From contig JAAXJD010000150.1 in NCBI GenBank assembly GCA_012270005.1, positions 1 through 55,378 of the forward strand: 55,378 nt of DNA. Reading direction: 5' to 3'. A program made the translations under genes and the position numbers. This DNA is from Flavobacterium sp. GTDB taxonomy: Bacteria; Bacteroidota; Bacteroidia; Flavobacteriales; Flavobacteriaceae. Of this stretch, positions 27,363 to 35,123 are shown piece after piece. Position 1 is the first letter of the stretch. Each line of letters starts with the position of its first letter. A model generated the notes under the pieces. That model did no database searches. It was not told the origin of the DNA and saw only the letters and a program-made list of their open reading frames with translations.

Positions 27363-29963
27363 TTAGAAGTTGTAACGCATGCTGAAGTTCCAGGTACGGC
27401 CGTTACCAAAGAAACCGTTGTTTGTAACATTAATGCCCTTATAGGTGGTGGCACCGTCTGTAACAGGGTTTGCAGTGGTAAGCTCTGTAATATAAACCTC
27501 GTCGAACACGTTGTTTACGTTTAAACGGAACTGTAGTGAGTTGTCTTTAAAGTTTAGCCTGTAGGTAACCCCGGCATCTACAAGGTCGTAAGATGGTAGT
27601 TCTACGTTGTTTTTAGTAACTACAGTAGCATACAGTTTATCATAGTTCCTCCAATCAGCGTCTATGCTAAGGCCTTTGGTTATTTTGTATACTGCGCCTA
27701 AGCCCCATACGCTCTGTGCACCACCACCTACTTTACCGTCTTTTACGTCGACAATTTCTTCGCTGATAAGGTTTTGGTTCTGGTCAAATTTACGTTTGTA
27801 CACGTTATCGTCGTACTTCCAGTCGCCAAACGCCCCGCAGCCCCTTACATCAAGTTGTTTTGCAGGGTGTGCTGTAAATTCCAGCTCAACACCCGTGTGC
27901 AGCTGGCTAACACCAGAGTTGTTGTCAAAGGTTTCGTTACCATCTGCATCGGTAGTACTGGTGGTGGTAACACGGTTTTTCCAGGTAGTACGGTATACGT
28001 TTACATCGGCATCTACATAGGTGTTGCGGAAACGGTATCCTGCCTCAAGCCCTGTTATTTTCTCGTTTTTAGTAAGCGGGTTAACCTGGTTACCAAAGTT
28101 CAGGTAAATATTGTCGTGGTACGGCTGGCGCGAGTAGAAGCCTGCGTTTGCAAATACGGTGTGCCCTTCGGCAATGTTGTAACTTGCACCACCTTTAATA
28201 TTGTAACCGGCATTGGTAACCTTAGCCGATTTTTCGTTTTCTTTGGTGTACTGCCACCTGTCCCAGCGTACATGGCTTTGGTTAGATAGTGCACCTTGTA
28301 CAAATGCTGAGAAATCATCTGTAGCATATTCGGCCTGGCCGAAAATACCGGCATAGCTTATACGCTCATCATAATCGTAGTTAACCTTCTGGTTGTTTGC
28401 TGGTTTGTTTACAAACGCGCTCCATGGGTTAGCGCTATACTGTTCTGTTACCACAAACCCATCAGGATATTGCTGGTTACCACCCTTAACACCTGCTCCG
28501 GGCACCTGGAAACCACTTAAGCCCAGGAAGTTTGATATTTCCCTGTAGTGTGTACCTTTATAGGTACGAAGGTCAATACCGGCGTTGTAGCTAAAGTTAT
28601 CAGTTATTTTGTGGTTAAAGTTACTTACCACTCCATACCATGCGTGGTTATTTACCGAGTTTCTTATGGCGTATGCATTGTTTACGTTTCCTATGCCATC
28701 GGTAAGTGCCTGGTTGGCTTTGTATATGGCATTAAAATCAATATGCCCATCGTCTGTAGGTTTACGGGCATTACCCCAGTTACCCGTTCCTCCACCGCGG
28801 CCCCATGAGGCGTATAGTACGGTACTCAGGTTCATTTTATCGCTAATGGTGTAATCCCAGTTAAAGTTAGCCACCGGCTTGTGGTAGTAGTTCCTACGCT
28901 CGCTAAGGTAGTCGCCCCAAAGGAAACCGTAGTTGTTGTTGTACTTGCGGCCGTATTGCAGGTATTTCGACAGCGGTTTTGTAAAGTTCTGGTCATGCCA
29001 CTGCGGCGCGCCAAATACCAGGAAGTTAAACAAGTGCTTGTCATTAGCCTTGTACCCAAAAGACAGGAAGTAGTTGTATCCCTCTCCGTACGTACCACGG
29101 TTATAGCCGTCGCCACTCCACTTTGTAAGCATAGCACTTACGCCAAAGCCGTTTTGCATAAGCCCTGTGTTATAGCCTGCGGTTGTTTTTACAAAGTTGT
29201 TATTACCAATAATAGACTGTGCAAAACCACCCTGTTTTAGGTCTGTGGCTTTAGTAACTATGTTTACCGTACCACCTACCGAAGACATGGCAAGCTTAGA
29301 CGAGCCAAGTCCACGCTGTACCTGAACAGAGTTAGCCACATCAGTCATGCCGCTCCAGTTGCTCCAATACATATTACCATCTTCCATACCGTTTATAGGC
29401 TGTCCGTTTAGCATAAATGCAGTGTTGGTTTGGTCAAAGCCGCGCACATACATTTTAGAGTCGCCATAACCGCCTGCCTGGCTGGCTACATAAATACCCG
29501 GAGTGTTTTTCATAACTTCAGGGAATTCCTGGTTACCGGATTTTTCCTGTATTTCCTTACGGCTTATGTTACTCACGGCCACAGGTGTACGCCTGTCCTG
29601 GGCAAGGTCTATAACACCTTTACCCACAATCACTACGCCTTCAAGTTCCTGCGACGCTTCTGCCAGGGTTACAGTACCAAGATTTAACGGTGTTCCTGCA
29701 GTAATGGTAAAGTCTAGCGTTTGGCTGTTGTACCCCAGGAAGCTTATTACTACCTGGCCCGATAGTTTAGAAGTACTTAAGGTAAATGTTCCGTTAGCAT
29801 CGGTAGAGGTGGCATCTGAGCCATTTTTTACTGCTACAGAAGCACCCAGAAGCGGGGCACCTGTGGCATCGTTAACTGTTCCGGTAATTCTTTCCTGTGC
29901 AAAAGAAAGGGTAGCCACCAGTAACATTGTAAATAAAAAGAACGATTTGATACGCTGTTTCAT
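27363..29963 (-). CDS. TonB-dependent receptor with carboxypeptidase-like regulatory domain
   Basis: Outer-membrane active-transport channel of 866 residues. Signal peptide about 1-22 (cleavage at SFA-QER). A CarboxypepD_reg-like domain (about 24-110; ITGTVNDATGAPLLGASV) typical of bacteroidete receptors comes next. The plug (about 120-240; TPGIYVASQ, YVRGFDQTNTAFMLNGQP) and a 22-strand barrel follow, ending in the C-terminal Phe of SMRYNF. There is no SusD partner gene, so it is a stand-alone receptor; iron-siderophore, vitamin or small peptide uptake are possible, and the sequence does not decide. A 362-base gene-free stretch lies upstream. Confidence 0.9.
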   Translation of the reverse strand: MKQRIKSFFLFTMLLVATLSFAQERITGTVNDATGAPLLGASVAVKNGSDATSTDANGTFTLSTSKLSGQVVISFLGYNSQTLDFTITAGTPLNLGTVTLAEASQELEGVVIVGKGVIDLAQDRRTPVAVSNISRKEIQEKSGNQEFPEVMKNTPGIYVASQAGGYGDSKMYVRGFDQTNTAFMLNGQPINGMEDGNMYWSNWSGMTDVANSVQVQRGLGSSKLAMSSVGGTVNIVTKATDLKQGGFAQSIIGNNNFVKTTAGYNTGLMQNGFGVSAMLTKWSGDGYNRGTYGEGYNYFLSFGYKANDKHLFNFLVFGAPQWHDQNFTKPLSKYLQYGRKYNNNYGFLWGDYLSERRNYYHKPVANFNWDYTISDKMNLSTVLYASWGRGGGTGNWGNARKPTDDGHIDFNAIYKANQALTDGIGNVNNAYAIRNSVNNHAWYGVVSNFNHKITDNFSYNAGIDLRTYKGTHYREISNFLGLSGFQVPGAGVKGGNQQYPDGFVVTEQYSANPWSAFVNKPANNQKVNYDYDERISYAGIFGQAEYATDDFSAFVQGALSNQSHVRWDRWQYTKENEKSAKVTNAGYNIKGGASYNIAEGHTVFANAGFYSRQPYHDNIYLNFGNQVNPLTKNEKITGLEAGYRFRNTYVDADVNVYRTTWKNRVTTTSTTDADGNETFDNNSGVSQLHTGVELEFTAHPAKQLDVRGCGAFGDWKYDDNVYKRKFDQNQNLISEEIVDVKDGKVGGGAQSVWGLGAVYKITKGLSIDADWRNYDKLYATVVTKNNVELPSYDLVDAGVTYRLNFKDNSLQFRLNVNNVFDEVYITELTTANPVTDGATTYKGINVTNNGFFGNGRTWNFSMRYNF

Positions 29964-30325
29964 CTCAGGGTATTTTTTTTAAATTGTTGATGCCCAAAAT
30001 TCAAAATCATTGAGAATAGAAAGGTTAAGGAAGGGTTAAAAGCTGTTTTGTTTACAATAATGTAAAACTTGGTAATGGCTTTAAGAAAAATTTAAGGAAT
30101 TTTGTAAGAGATATAGAATCTATACCGGCTAACTGGTAACTTAAACTTAATACGTTATGTTTGATTTTATAAAAGTGGTGAATTTACGCACAGGTATTAC
30201 TGCTTAGGAACAGGTTGAACAATTCTAAACGCGTTACAAAACCGACTAATCCGGTAGAGAATTGTTAGAAAATATGCGTTTTTAAAGCGGGTGAACACAT
30301 CTCAATCAAAGCTAAAAAGTAACTT
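29964..30325. other. Gene-free stretch of 362 bases
   Basis: Holds the leader and promoter region of the TonB receptor gene (minus strand) and the 3' flank of the epimerase gene. AT-rich; no convincing terminator. A plus-strand TATGTTTG at 30156-30163 has no gene behind it, only a 16-codon frame. Confidence 0.5.
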
Positions 30326-31231
30326 TTACACCAGTGCATTTATAGCTTCAATAGCTGTGCTGTGCTGAAAGTTAAAACCGCTTTTTTGCAGGCGTACGGG
30401 TATTACATTTCGTGATTTTAAAACCAGTTCGGTTTCGGTACCTATCAGCTTAGCCCCGAAACTTAACAGCCATTCCGGTTGAGGTATCCCAAAGGGTATG
30501 TGTACCGCTTTGCGCAAAGCACTCATAAAATCTTTGTTTTTAATAGGATTTGGTGCTGTAACATTTACGGGGCCTGTTAATTTTTCGGTTAGTATAAATG
30601 CTACCGCGCGCGCAAAATCATGTTCATGTATCCAGCTGATGAACTGCCTGCCGTTACCCTGCTTTCCGCCCAGGCCTGCCATAGCAAGTTTTTTCATAAT
30701 GGGGAATGCACCTCCGTTATTACCCAAAACTATAGAGGTACGCAATGCCGTTTTATAGGTTTGCGGAGTATTAATACCAAAGAAGATACGTTCCCACATT
30801 TTAGCCACATTCATACTGAAATCGCTGCCAATTTCCCCTTCGTTTTCATTCATTTGTTTGTCTTCGCTGTGGCGGTATATGGTAGCAGTACAAGCGTTTA
30901 GCCAGTGCTTAGGAGGGTGGGTACATTGAGCTATGGCTTTGCCTAAAATGGCAGTGCTGTCTACACGGCTGTTTAGTATTTCGTTTTTATTGGTTATGGT
31001 ATAGCGGCAGTTCACTGATTTCCCTGCAAGGTTTATCAACGCGTCGGCACTGTTTAGTTCCGTTTCCCAACCGGTAAGGGTCTTGGCATCCCAGTGTACG
31101 TACCTTATGTTGCCATTATTAGGTAACGGCTTGCGGGTGAGTATGATAATCTCATCGGTTTTATCTTTAAAATAGGCAATAAGTACCTTACCCAGAAAGC
31201 CTGTTCCTGCGGCAATAACTAACTTTTTCAT
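30326..31231 (-). CDS. TIGR01777 family NAD-dependent epimerase/dehydratase-like protein (YfcH type)
   Basis: 301-residue Rossmann protein of the atypical short-chain dehydrogenase group. N-terminal nucleotide-binding AGTGFLG (8-14), NLAGKSV (about 88-94) and WERIFFG in place of the usual YxxxK context, then the C-terminal DUF1731 segment (FGIPQPEWLLSFGAKLIG ... RNVIPVRLQKSGFNF). The substrate of this family is unknown. It starts 9 bases after the stop of the DCC1-like gene and ends a three-gene unit (32399 to 30326) that follows a GbsR/MarR regulator gene, so it is likely under that regulator. Confidence 0.88.
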   Translation of the reverse strand: MKKLVIAAGTGFLGKVLIAYFKDKTDEIIILTRKPLPNNGNIRYVHWDAKTLTGWETELNSADALINLAGKSVNCRYTITNKNEILNSRVDSTAILGKAIAQCTHPPKHWLNACTATIYRHSEDKQMNENEGEIGSDFSMNVAKMWERIFFGINTPQTYKTALRTSIVLGNNGGAFPIMKKLAMAGLGGKQGNGRQFISWIHEHDFARAVAFILTEKLTGPVNVTAPNPIKNKDFMSALRKAVHIPFGIPQPEWLLSFGAKLIGTETELVLKSRNVIPVRLQKSGFNFQHSTAIEAINALV

Positions 31232-31240
31232 GGTGATTTT

Positions 31241-32077
31241 TTATTTAGTGATGGAGATATAGAGTACTACTGCCAGCAGTAACAGGAATCTGTAGCTAAG
31301 CCAGCTTATACAAAGTTTTACAGGAAGTTGTAGTAGTTCTACCCTGCGAAGATGTTCAAAAAACATGATGGTTGCTGTGATTAAAAACCACAATGTGTGA
31401 GGCTCAGGAGGAATGTTTATTATTGTATTTGCAATTATCCCTAATGTTAGCAGGAGCGAACCAAACACCGACACCGTAACCAGGTTGCCAAAGTATTCAA
31501 ACTGTATTTCCCTGTTTTCTTTCCGTAATACTATCCATTGAAACGGTATTTGCCCAAAGGCTAAAAAGAGCTCTATATAAAAGGGCAGAATAGCCCTTCC
31601 GTAATTCATAAGTTGCGAATAGCGGAACAGTACCAGCGCAGTTATTATCCCTCCAAACAAAATGTAAGCAATGCGGTACTTAAGGTTAAAATCAGGTATG
31701 CACTGTGCTTCGGTTTGATTTTTTGCCGAAGGGATAATTACCTTACGATTGTATGATATAAATGAATACAGCCTTTTTAGTACAGCATACACCGGTTTGG
31801 TTTTGCCCAGTTTTTCAATAAACGGCATGGAGTGCCCCAGTACTTTAAGCAGGCTGTCTATTCCGTATGTAACGGATTTGCTGGCGTGGTCTATTAACGC
31901 GATTTCGTTACGGGCACGGTCCGCATGTACAAGCATGCAACTTTCTGTGTTGAGTTCGGTATAGGGCAGGCGGCCATTTTCGTCGAGCATACCTGTTTTT
32001 ACAAAGCCTGATGTGTATGCCCTGCACAGTGGGCAGTCTTTATCATAAACCAGGGTTTGGTGTTTTAGGGTTTTCAT
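31241..32077 (-). CDS. DCC1-like thiol-disulfide oxidoreductase domain fused to a membrane region
   Basis: 278 residues. The N-terminus has the DxxCPxC motif of DCC1-like proteins: D12-K-D-C15-P-L-C18. A soluble domain of about 110 residues follows, then about five hydrophobic helices to the C-terminus. DCC1-like proteins are thought to be thioredoxin-fold oxidoreductases; the fusion would place the redox site at the membrane. The start at 32077 overlaps the end of the upstream gene by 35 bases, which suggests translational coupling. Longer in-frame starts inside the neighbour lack family sequence. Member of the unit behind the GbsR/MarR gene. Confidence 0.78.
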   Translation of the reverse strand: MKTLKHQTLVYDKDCPLCRAYTSGFVKTGMLDENGRLPYTELNTESCMLVHADRARNEIALIDHASKSVTYGIDSLLKVLGHSMPFIEKLGKTKPVYAVLKRLYSFISYNRKVIIPSAKNQTEAQCIPDFNLKYRIAYILFGGIITALVLFRYSQLMNYGRAILPFYIELFLAFGQIPFQWIVLRKENREIQFEYFGNLVTVSVFGSLLLTLGIIANTIINIPPEPHTLWFLITATIMFFEHLRRVELLQLPVKLCISWLSYRFLLLLAVVLYISITK

Positions 32078-32399
32078 GGTTGTCGAATTTATCTTTTTGA
32101 TTATACAATATATACGTAAAGTAAAAGGCCAATAGGGGTGGCAGTACGAACAACCAGTATTCAATGCCAAATCCTAACCAAAGCACAAAAAATAATATTG
32201 TAAAAAAGAAATAGATGTATATATGGATGTTCTTTGGGATCCAAAATAACAGTATTAAAGCCACAAGCACCTGTAAAAAGCCTGTAACCATAGTAGATAA
32301 GGGTGCAAAGAACAAAAGATAATTATCAGCGAATCCTATCAGTCCAAGTAACAACGGAAGCCCCAGAGCAAATGCATTAACGTAGTGTAGTGTTTTCAT
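32043..32399 (-). CDS. Small four-helix membrane protein, unknown function
   Basis: 118 residues, largely hydrophobic, about four membrane helices, with a polar C-terminal tail (NQKDKFDNHENPKTPNPGL). No family recognised with confidence; the pattern resembles small DoxX-like or DUF membrane proteins. First gene of the three-gene unit. A TTTCAAA-N4-TTTGAAA palindrome lies 20 bases before the ATG, the same site as in front of the regulator gene. Its 3' end overlaps the DCC1-like gene. Confidence 0.6.
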   Translation of the reverse strand: MKTLHYVNAFALGLPLLLGLIGFADNYLLFFAPLSTMVTGFLQVLVALILLFWIPKNIHIYIYFFFTILFFVLWLGFGIEYWLFVLPPLLAFYFTYILYNQKDKFDNHENPKTPNPGL

Positions 32400-32418
32400 A
32401 ATATTGATTGTTTTAAAC

Positions 32419-32436
32419 TTTCAAAAATATTTGAAA
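32419..32436. promoter_or_regulatory. Putative operator (copy 2) in front of the three-gene unit
   Basis: TTTCAAA-AATA-TTTGAAA, a perfect palindrome with 7-base arms. The arms are identical to those of the site at 32990-33007. It lies between the regulator gene and the unit 32399 to 30326. Confidence 0.65.
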
Positions 32437-32453
32437 TATATAGTTAAAATTTT

Positions 32454-32960
32454 TTAGCGCATTATTTTCATAACCAGGCGCGCTATCCAGTTATCTTTGT
32501 GTTCGGTAACTTTTTCTATCATGTTATCGGCTTTCAACACAAAATCGTATAGCTTGGCGGTCTGCTCTCTGAATGATTTTGCCTCGGCGGAGTTGTCCTG
32601 GTCAGAAAATGACGACACATCTTTAAGCACCTTAAGTGCGGGTTTAATTTCGCGGCGGCTGCGTTCCTGCGCTATTTTTACGGCAAGTTCGTCCAGGTCT
32701 TTTTCAGACACAAAAAACTCCCTGCGTTCGCCCGGTTTCAGCTCCTTATATACAATACCCCAGTCCATAAGCGCGCGAAGGTTCATGCTGGCGTTGCCAC
32801 GGCTTATGTGCAGCTCCTCCATGATCTCCTCCATGCTCAGGGCTTCGGGTGCTACCATAAGCAACGCGTGTATCTGTGCCATGGTTTTATTAATGCCCCA
32901 CTGGCTACCCAGTGCGCCCCAGGTTTGTATAAACTTATTTTTAGCTTCTCCGAATTCCAT
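32454..32960 (-). CDS. GbsR/MarR family transcriptional regulator
   Basis: 168-residue winged-helix protein of the GbsR type. The helix-turn-helix is at about residues 36-75 (LSMEEIMEELHISRGNASMNLRAL, where the ISRGNASMNLR recognition helix is typical), followed by the wing (GERREFF) and a helical dimerisation region. The family includes regulators of glycine betaine synthesis, but osmolyte genes are absent here. It is followed at 54 bases by a three-gene unit. Identical palindromes before this gene and before that unit suggest it binds them. The promoter box is so close to the ATG that the mRNA may be leaderless. Confidence 0.88.
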   Translation of the reverse strand: MEFGEAKNKFIQTWGALGSQWGINKTMAQIHALLMVAPEALSMEEIMEELHISRGNASMNLRALMDWGIVYKELKPGERREFFVSEKDLDELAVKIAQERSRREIKPALKVLKDVSSFSDQDNSAEAKSFREQTAKLYDFVLKADNMIEKVTEHKDNWIARLVMKIMR

Positions 32961-32964
32961 AACC

Positions 32965-32997
32965 CAAAGGTAAATAATAGTTTTTAAAATTTCAAAA
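32965..32997 (-). promoter_or_regulatory. Promoter of the GbsR/MarR gene
   Basis: Minus-strand TACCTTTG (32965-32972) with TTTTG 20 bases upstream, inside the palindrome at 32990-33007. The box ends only 4 bases before the ATG, which predicts a leaderless transcript. Confidence 0.55.
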
Positions 32998-33007
32998 TTA
33001 TTTGAAA
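32990..33007. promoter_or_regulatory. Putative operator (copy 1) in front of the GbsR/MarR gene
   Basis: TTTCAAA-ATTA-TTTGAAA, a perfect palindrome arm for arm, same 4-base spacing as copy 2. It overlaps the -33 region, as expected for an autorepressor site. Confidence 0.65.
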
Positions 33008-33035
33008 ATTAATTTTAAGTCTATAGTATAAAACA

Positions 33036-33062
33036 AAACCCCGAAGCAAAACTTCGGGGTTT
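33036..33062 (-). terminator. Terminator of the M3 peptidase gene
   Basis: Stem AAACCCCGAAG/CTTCGGGGTTT with loop CAAAA, A-rich left flank. Confidence 0.8.
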
Positions 33063-33089
33063 GTCTATATATCTTATCTCTCTTGTCTC

Positions 33090-35123
33090 TTAGTTTGCTA
33101 AAAGCCCAGCTCTCCTCAGCAGCGCTTCAGGCTTAGGTTCTTGTCCGCGGAAACGTTTGTACAGTTCCATAGGGTGCTCGGTGCCGCCCTTGCTCAATAC
33201 AAATTCCTTGAACTTGGTCGCAGTTTCTTTATCAAAGATACCCTTTTCCTGGAACAGCTCAAAGGCATCGGCGTCTAGTACTTCGGCCCATTTGTAGCTG
33301 TAGTACCCAGACGAATACCCACCTTGGAAAATATGGCTGAATGCCGTACTCATCGCGTTCTCCTTTACATCAGGGTACAAAGAGGTGTGGGCAAACTGCT
33401 GTGTTTCAAAATCCTTAAGGCTGGTAATATGGCTTGGATCTTCGCTATGCCAACCCATATCCAGCAACCCGAAACTTAGTTGGCGCAGTGTAGCCATACC
33501 TTCCTGGAAACTGGCACTTTCCTTAATCTTATTAATGTATTCAATCGGGATAATTTCTCCGGTTTCGTAGTGGTGTGCAAACAGAGCAAGTGCCTCCGGC
33601 TCGTAACACCAGTTTTCCATAACCTGGCTTGGTAGTTCCACAAAATCCCAGTACACGCTGGTACCGCTTAGGCTTGGGTAAACGGTGTTAGCCAGCATGC
33701 CATGCAGCGCGTGCCCAAATTCATGGAACAGGGTAGTAACCTCATTAAAGGTAAGCAGGCTTGGCTTGCTGGCGGTAGGCTTGGTAAAGTTGCACACTAT
33801 GCTTACGTGTGGGCGTTCGTTAACGCCATCCAAAACATACTGATTCTTAAAGGAAGTCATCCAGGCACCGTTGCGCTTGCCTTTCCTCGGGAAGAAATCG
33901 GCGTAAAAAATAGCCACCAGGTCACCATTTTCGTCTTTAACCTCATAGGTAGTAACGTCTTTGTGGTACACGTCTATGTCTTTTACCTCCTCAAAGGTAA
34001 GCCCGTACAGTTTGCCCGCTATGGTAAACGCGCCGTTTAGAACGTTCTCCAGCTTAAAGTACGGTTTTAACTTTTCATCGTCAAGGTTGAACAGTTTTTG
34101 TTTTAGTTTTTCGCTGTAGTAGGCACCATCCCATTTTTGGATTTGGTCTATACCGTCAAGTTCTTTTGCAAAGGCAGAAAGCTCTGCAAACTCACGCTCC
34201 GCAGCGGGCTTGGCTTTGGCAAGCAGGTCATTCAGGAATGATTTTACCTTATCCGGATGTTCTGCCATGCGCTCTTCCAGCACAAAATGCGCATGCGAGT
34301 TGTACCCTAAAAGTTGGGCACGCTCATGGCGTAGTTTGGCAATGCGCAGTACTATTTTCTCGTTGTTCTGTTCGTTATCCTGAAAACCTTTTGCTCCAAA
34401 TGCCAGCGCGAGTTGTTTGCGTAATTCACGATTATCGGCATAGGTCATAAACGGTACGTAGCTGGGGTAATCCAGCGTGAAGATCCAACCTTCCTTTTCC
34501 TGACTTGCGGCGGTTTCCCTGGCGGCTTCAATTGCACCTTCAGGTAATCCCGCCAAATCTTTTTCGTCGGTAATGTGCAGGGTAAACGCGTTGGTTTCCT
34601 TCAGTACATTTTCGCCAAACTCCAGGCTTAGCTTGCTTAGTTCCTTGTCAATTTCGCGAAGCTGGTTCTTTTTATCTTCAGGCAGGTTAGCGCCGTTACG
34701 GCTAAAGCCTTTGTATTGTTTATCCAGTAAGGTAGTTTGTTCCGGTGTAAGGTTAAGGCTGTCCTTTTGCTTGTACACGGCTTTAACGCGCTTGAATAAA
34801 TCGGCATTCAGGCGGATGTCATTCCCAAATTCCGAAAGTAGGGGAGAAACCTCCTGGGCTATTTGTTGCAACTCATCATTGGTTTCCGCCGAATGCAGGT
34901 TAAAAAAGATGCTCGAAATCCGGTCCAGCGTATCGCCGCTGTAGCTCATGGCTACGGTAGTGTTTTCAAATGTTGGCGCCTCGGGGTTGTGTGCTATGGC
35001 ATCAACCTCTTTGCGGGCCGCCTCAATGGCCTCTTTAAATGCCGGTAAAAAATCTTCGGTTTTTATGCTGCTGAAAGGTGCAGTATCGTGCTTTGTAGTA
35101 AATTTTTGAGTGAGTATGTTCAT
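33090..35123 (-). CDS. M3 family metallopeptidase (oligopeptidase / peptidyl-dipeptidase Dcp type)
   Basis: 677-residue zinc peptidase of the thimet oligopeptidase family that breaks down short peptides. Active site HEFGH with His467, Glu468 and His471, third ligand Glu496 in FVELPSQVMENW; the whole family block HALHGMLA is intact. No signal peptide, so it is expected in the cytoplasm, as for OpdA/PrlC; Dcp-like specificity is possible. A TAATTTTG sequence ends 2 bases upstream of the ATG, so either the mRNA is leaderless or this is not the promoter. It is closed by its own terminator. Confidence 0.93.
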   Translation of the reverse strand: MNILTQKFTTKHDTAPFSSIKTEDFLPAFKEAIEAARKEVDAIAHNPEAPTFENTTVAMSYSGDTLDRISSIFFNLHSAETNDELQQIAQEVSPLLSEFGNDIRLNADLFKRVKAVYKQKDSLNLTPEQTTLLDKQYKGFSRNGANLPEDKKNQLREIDKELSKLSLEFGENVLKETNAFTLHITDEKDLAGLPEGAIEAARETAASQEKEGWIFTLDYPSYVPFMTYADNRELRKQLALAFGAKGFQDNEQNNEKIVLRIAKLRHERAQLLGYNSHAHFVLEERMAEHPDKVKSFLNDLLAKAKPAAEREFAELSAFAKELDGIDQIQKWDGAYYSEKLKQKLFNLDDEKLKPYFKLENVLNGAFTIAGKLYGLTFEEVKDIDVYHKDVTTYEVKDENGDLVAIFYADFFPRKGKRNGAWMTSFKNQYVLDGVNERPHVSIVCNFTKPTASKPSLLTFNEVTTLFHEFGHALHGMLANTVYPSLSGTSVYWDFVELPSQVMENWCYEPEALALFAHHYETGEIIPIEYINKIKESASFQEGMATLRQLSFGLLDMGWHSEDPSHITSLKDFETQQFAHTSLYPDVKENAMSTAFSHIFQGGYSSGYYSYKWAEVLDADAFELFQEKGIFDKETATKFKEFVLSKGGTEHPMELYKRFRGQEPKPEALLRRAGLLAN

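Follow-up and report, generated by a model that had tools for sequence, protein, structure and literature searches.

Why would a small regulator gene be framed by two copies of one palindrome, and which protein would read them? The window analysed here is a stretch of 55,378 nucleotides from Flavobacterium sp. (assembly GCA_012270005.1, contig JAAXJD010000150.1), in which TTTCAAA-N4-TTTGAAA stands on both sides of a GbsR/MarR-type regulator gene, at 32419-32436 and at 32990-33007, with no mismatch in either copy. Judging from related loci, the palindromes are very probably docking sites of the regulator encoded between them. The best explanation of the locus as a whole is that both are operators of this regulator, which would repress its own gene at copy 1, limit the following operon at copy 2 and be released by a ligand; we give this joint reading a probability of about 0.85.

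The palindrome pair and the regulator between them

In minus-strand order, the features of the unit are as follows:

33036-33062, minus strand: terminator-like hairpin with a 12-pair stem (6 G-C pairs), separating the unit from the upstream same-strand gene (33090-35123)
32990-33007, minus strand: predicted operator copy 1, TTTCAAATAATTTTGAAA, at about -47 to -30 of the regulator's predicted transcription start
32965-32972, minus strand: predicted sigma-A -7 box, TACCTTTG, 4 bases before the ATG; predicted transcription start at 32960
32454-32960, minus strand: GbsR/MarR-type regulator gene, 168 aa, assigned by Pfam MarR_2 and by its best PDB relative, Mj223 (1ku9)
32419-32436, minus strand: predicted operator copy 2, TTTCAAATATTTTTGAAA, 17 bases past the regulator stop codon and 19 before the next ATG
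32043-32399, minus strand: small protein, 118 aa, the first gene past copy 2; a membrane protein by eye
31241-32077, minus strand: DCC1-like protein with a C-terminal extension, 278 aa (PF04134, E 2.6e-5, 25.8 bits, under the cutoff of 27.8)
30326-31231, minus strand: TIGR01777 family oxidoreductase, 301 aa (TIGR01777, 267.7 bits vs a cutoff of 207.35)

The preliminary description of this DNA had taken the pair for two identical palindromes of 7+4+7 bases framing the regulator gene. The pair and its placement were borne out, and the arms are identical between the copies; the 4-base spacers differ (AATA vs ATTA on the plus strand), and the 7+4+7 form had to be rejected as the conserved unit, being seen in just 4 of 157 copy-1 and 2 of 157 copy-2 sites, the window included. 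By sequence comparison, the unit conserved in relatives is TTTCA-N8-TGAAA, that is 5+8+5, called the core below. The 157 + 157 sites come from 159 loci (the window and the sets of 80 and 78 loci described in the next section), after removal of identical stretches and of loci that lack the core or have too short a flank; species may be shared between the named and unnamed locus sets behind them.

A genome-wide count had been proposed as a check. The exact 18-base pattern is not frequent here, occurring at 2 places in the 3,573,020-base assembly, both flanking the regulator gene (its reversed control occurs at 1 place), although 170 of 397 family genomes hold at least one match somewhere, which means that the exact pattern is not locus-specific in other genomes. 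Within the window, a scan allowing up to 3 mismatches returned 10 matches vs 9.4 expected from shuffling; only the two exact copies stand out. The core alone occurs at 11 places in this genome vs 18 for its reversed control. Thus, the 18-mer and the core prove little as words, and position carries the proof: what chance does not account for is that, in relatives, the core recurs next to the regulator at the same two positions.

The regulator falls into the MarR superfamily, scoring 33 bits against PF12802 MarR_2 (cutoff 27) and 18.9 bits against PF01047 MarR, under the latter's cut-off of 24.6; the fold matches of its AlphaFold2 model (mean pLDDT 83.6, searched with Foldseek) include MarR proteins. 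It belongs to the GbsR-type subfamily, as its homology to Mj223 of Methanocaldococcus jannaschii extends over most of the protein. Mj223 (1ku9) is the closest solved structure both in sequence (E 4.4e-13, residues 4-145) and in fold (top Foldseek match, TM 0.62 and 0.68), and is the template for GbsR models. The best NCBIfam match is CudC (NF047500, E 4e-12), which we take to be GbsR-related; at 46.3 bits vs a cut-off of 218, the sequence marks the regulator as related to CudC, not CudC itself. Its nearest named relatives are in Flavobacterium species at 85-86% identity, and 25 aligned members all agree at residues I52 to N56 and S58 to N60, in the region of the presumed recognition helix. No opu or gbsAB genes lie beside it among its neighbours in the window, which speaks against a place in the osmoprotectant-responsive GbsR group.

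Conservation of the two sites in relatives

The first set of relatives comprises 80 Flavobacterium-type loci, the best 80 of 324 relatives in one-genome-per-species data, and thus favours close kin. A few record names among them (Limnohabitans MAG, Pedobacter) may be mis-labelled; one contig labelled as a Limnohabitans MAG (L120) carries a Flavobacterium-type locus and is probably mis-binned. In this best-80 set, 79 loci have the core no more than 150 bases upstream of the regulator, the exception (L105) having a variant core whose spacer is one base short, and all 80 have it downstream, the downstream zone being 450-4500 bases after the regulator start. The first downstream core stands 517-611 bases after the regulator start, within about 110 bases of the gene end, in 77 of the 80, and farther off in L071 (920), L070 (1203) and L138 (1412). 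Outside the two zones, no core was found in 824,651 bases of these loci, nor did a scrambled control pattern occur in any of the 80.

Conservation at orthologous loci had been named as a further check, and it holds across the family. A clear regulator orthologue (E below 1e-40) is present in 88 of 397 family genomes. Among the 78 loci with wider flanks, copy 1 is found in 77, copy 2 in 76 and both in 75; the remaining ten have copy 1 in nine (the tenth contig begins inside the gene) and copy 2 in ten. This brings the totals to 86 of 87 testable loci upstream and 86 of 88 downstream, with two loci lacking copy 2 and one lacking a perfect copy 1. At greater distance, 40 loci were chosen from a longer list: of 20 that belong to other families of the same order or class, 17 retain copy 1 and 13 retain copy 2, and of 20 more remote phylum-level homologues, 4 have copy 1 and none has copy 2.

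A directional pattern built from such sites, and for that reason partly circular for these genomes, gave 101 matches in the 397 family genomes, 93 of them at the regulator and all of these on its strand. Genomes with a match make up 62 of the 88 having a clear regulator vs 6 of the 309 without. The pattern misses 26 of the 88 regulator loci, where the plain core is present on inspection with few exceptions. The concentration of matches at the regulator means that the site follows the regulator, and the regulon looks, from these genomes, to be mainly one locus. A wider regulon was considered and rejected: 8 of the 101 matches lie away from the regulator (2 of these in genomes that have it), and they may be chance, since three reversed-control matches occur in the same table. 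At the locus itself, a second downstream core is seen in 11 of 159 loci; compared by eye, eight of these positions are a short way ahead of another gene, and the three near 2140 are probably inside coding sequence.

A proposed mode of action and its alternatives

Copy 1 had been placed over the -33 region of the regulator's own promoter, and the predicted promoter is indeed conserved: in 144 of 157 distinct loci, TAnnTTTG stands at a distance of 33-35 bases from where copy 1 begins. The distance from this box to the ATG is 3-4 bases in 118 of the 157, so that transcription should begin at or next to the ATG, and a leaderless regulator mRNA is expected in the window and in most of these loci. 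In F. psychrophilum, leaderless transcripts make up just 5.5% of mapped mRNAs (PMC9723704; this and all other papers are cited from excerpts). In F. johnsoniae numbering, copy 1 covers about -47 to -30 including the -33 region, an element that is weakly conserved in the promoters of that species (PMC6847099). Copy 1 is thus a putative promoter operator. By contents of the DNA, then, the core lies near the regulator's own predicted promoter, as in the CydE system described below. In 40 of 157 loci, copy 1 itself contains another TAnnTTTG word at index 7, which could be an additional promoter box or a coincidence of AT-rich DNA. An E. coli-type promoter scan of 30000-33200 found 8 candidates vs 7.7 expected from shuffles.

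The strongest outside support for the predicted binding comes, by analogy, from the footprint of CydE, a GbsR-type repressor of Alishewanella sp. WH16-1. CydE protected TATTTCAGAAATTTCTGAAAGTTCA in DNase footprinting and bound it in EMSA (PMC6096048); this site consists of TTTCA-N8-TGAAA followed by GTTCA, as at the flavobacterial sites. As proposed for the flavobacterial regulator, CydE represses its own operon (cydEAB) and has two binding sites; in contrast to it, CydE controls cytochrome bd, sulfate relieves the repression, its second site GGGATGCGCATATGCAAAT is another element, and both sites lie in one promoter region (PMC6096048). CioR of Chromobacterium violaceum also differs in controlling a cytochrome bd operon (PMC11837568). 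Plasmid-borne proteobacterial relatives were sampled as 14 of 167 records with a relative, picked for variety. The core starts 39-48 bases before the gene in 6 of the 14 (Alphaproteobacteria 6 of 9, Betaproteobacteria 0 of 2, Gammaproteobacteria 0 of 3), and all six have cydD or a cytochrome bd gene next door; the exact core is absent in the other eight, several of which show a variant palindrome by eye. As CydE binds the same element and six of the plasmid relatives have it, the operator type is not new: both it and the regulator family are already known. The recurrence hints that GbsR-type repressors of different phyla have retained a single operator sequence.

How such a site can act is illustrated by OpcR and GbsR of B. 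subtilis, which share with this unit the GbsR family and A/T-rich inverted repeats (PMC7396694, PMC6207618). OpcR blocks the -35 region, like copy 1 here, and GbsR forms a roadblock downstream of the transcription start, which is a model for copy 2; thus both modes exist in the GbsR family (PMC7396694). They differ from the present unit in that each protein is described as using one mode, that their targets are genes for osmoprotectant synthesis and uptake, and that choline is the GbsR ligand (PMC7396694, PMC6207618). For Mj223, the closest solved structure, the operator is given as not known in the excerpt of PMC7396694.

We propose the following mechanism. A regulator dimer on copy 1 would cover the -33 region of the regulator's sigma-A promoter and block RNA polymerase, causing autorepression by steric hindrance. 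A second dimer, at copy 2, would limit transcription of the operon behind it, most probably by forming a roadblock for polymerase coming from the regulator promoter. The roadblock is our first choice because B. subtilis GbsR works in this way (PMC7396694). Read-through with a roadblock also fits 135 of 165 loci, where at most 25 bases separate the regulator stop codon from copy 2. Binding of a ligand to the regulator would then release both sites together. The sites, their conserved positions and the predicted promoter box at copy 1 can be read in the DNA itself; binding, repression, the roadblock and the ligand are inferred. The preliminary description had the regulator controlling itself and driving the operon from 32399 to 30326, with copy 2 in front of that unit. 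The position of copy 2 agrees, and control of both parts is supported by the comparative evidence; "drives" should probably read "represses", as the described GbsR-type regulators are repressors according to the excerpts cited. In the open-licence literature, we found no binding or expression data for a Bacteroidetes member.

It is possible, though less likely, that copy 1 alone is a true operator of this kind and that copy 2 is part of a non-canonical promoter, repressed or even activated by the regulator, with the W7-TTTAA block and the TTTCTG of copy 2 as promoter parts. Indeed, copy 2 has copy 1's arms and the following GTTTAAAA, and at the same time a consensus of its own: index 12 is C in 133 of 157 copy-2 sites vs T in 143 of 157 copy-1 sites, and a conserved W7-TTTAA block lies upstream of copy 2 that is absent from copy 1 (157 loci). 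Where the gap between the regulator stop codon and copy 2 exceeds 40 bases, 9 of 20 loci have a terminator-like hairpin ahead of copy 2 (0 of 10 with a gap of 26-40); there, the operon needs a promoter of its own, and a roadblock to read-through makes little sense. Against a promoter at copy 2, TAnnTTTG occurs at no fixed position near it: the 157 stretches of 140 bases contain 5 matches in all, and 3 of these fall within the operator. On these grounds, a sigma-A promoter was rejected for copy 2. The short gap in most loci, moreover, makes read-through the simple solution.

Returning to the proposal of two DNA operators, the arms of copy 2 could also, judged by eye, pair as RNA and form a hairpin in the operon leader. 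This is improbable, since copy 1 has the same arms and lies upstream of the predicted transcription start, the site footprinted as DNA with CydE has the same sequence (PMC6096048), and Rfam has no match in the window. The pair adjoining the core, at positions (-1, 18), points the same way: its departures from Watson-Crick are mostly C-C, G-G and A-G, with the G-T type in 7 of 157 sites at copy 1 and 2 of 157 at copy 2, as expected of two half-sites read one by one. Binding by the neighbouring regulator is a prediction from sequence, and a more global regulator might occupy the palindromes with the neighbour as a bystander; as the directional pattern tracks the regulator gene across the family genomes and seldom matches elsewhere, we consider this highly improbable. 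That the palindromes are a chance repeat in AT-rich sequence would agree with the loose core being no commoner than its reversed control in this genome. The core is kept at both places beside the regulator, in 157 loci each, and chance is hardly credible as an explanation.

The exchangeable genes behind copy 2

If both palindromes are operators of the regulator, the genes behind copy 2 are its cargo. From the loci compared, the regulator and its two sites stay put and the genes behind copy 2 are shuffled between species. Gene profiles derived from the Flavobacterium loci served to count cargo up to 5 kb from the regulator start, or over less where a contig ends, so that all counts are lower bounds. 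After the regulator in the 80 Flavobacterium loci, TIGR01777 genes are found in at least 46, SRPBCC-like in at least 42, DUF2071 in at least 28, DCC1 in at least 27 and methyltransferase genes in at least 5; the 78 family loci have TIGR01777 in at least 41, DUF2071 in at least 21, methyltransferases in at least 19, and DCC1 and SRPBCC-like genes in at least 9 each. Among the 40 distant loci, TIGR01777 is present in at least 12 and DCC1 in at least 7. The SRPBCC label is our assumption, made by eye; an example matched PF03364 at 22.4 bits vs a cut-off of 23.4. The cargo often includes small proteins that match no Pfam family and look by eye like membrane proteins; the 118-aa protein of the window has no Pfam match above cutoff and no NCBIfam match, and its profile cluster was found at 45 or more of 80 related loci.

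The flanking genes tend to be constant: one gene cluster stands 5' of the regulator in 60 of the 80 loci and one 3' of the cargo in 55 of the 80. We take these clusters, judged by eye, to be an M3 peptidase (5') and gcvP (3'). A survey of the GbsR family in 2018, based on gene neighbourhoods, gave no consistent picture for the Bacteroidetes group (PMC6207618, excerpt). This group now has a more consistent picture, namely a predicted operator shared at two positions, along with a set of neighbouring genes that keeps returning. For experiments, the locus provides a handle in the form of an 18-base site, mainly at one locus per genome, with a regulator present in 88 of 397 family genomes. The handle extends to the poorly understood TIGR01777, DCC1-like and DUF2071 proteins.

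More tentatively, and at a little short of even odds, the two lines may be read jointly: TTTCA-N8-TGAAA would be a code common to GbsR-type autorepressors from Bacteroidetes to Proteobacteria, and Bacteroidia would have built a two-operator cassette on it. If so, this means that a fixed cassette with two operators sits at a stable chromosomal place in Bacteroidia, and that copy 2, lacking a sigma-A promoter, serves as a docking point for exchangeable operons of lipid- and redox-type enzymes. Each species could thus attach its own response to a single conserved switch whose regulator mRNA is leaderless. In the open-licence literature, where absence counts for little, no description of the site pair or of exchangeable cargo in Bacteroidetes was found. 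Searches there for GbsR with Flavobacterium, and for DCC1-like or TIGR01777 with Flavobacteri, also gave nothing. A link of the cargo families to light response was considered and rejected: open-licence searches for these families, and for MarR with Flavobacteria and light, returned nothing.

Several minor observations concern the genes farther downstream. In the window, an 866-residue gene at 27363-29963, presumably a TonB-dependent receptor as judged by eye, stands between the operon and its usual following gene, and a similar TonB-receptor-like gene occupies the same place in L067. An ECF-type sigma factor gene is found downstream in 54 related loci, and a small cysteine-containing protein without a Pfam match follows the operon in 15; L167 is an example of extra downstream genes, at about 1855 bases after the regulator start. 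Twelve loci of phylum-level homologues, identified by sequence, have a different downstream gene in common. In two Methylobacterium plasmids (L297 and L308), DUF4166 and SDR oxidoreductase genes come after a related MarR gene, an order reminiscent of the flavobacterial cargo, with a variant palindrome, TTTCTG...CAGAAA, upstream.
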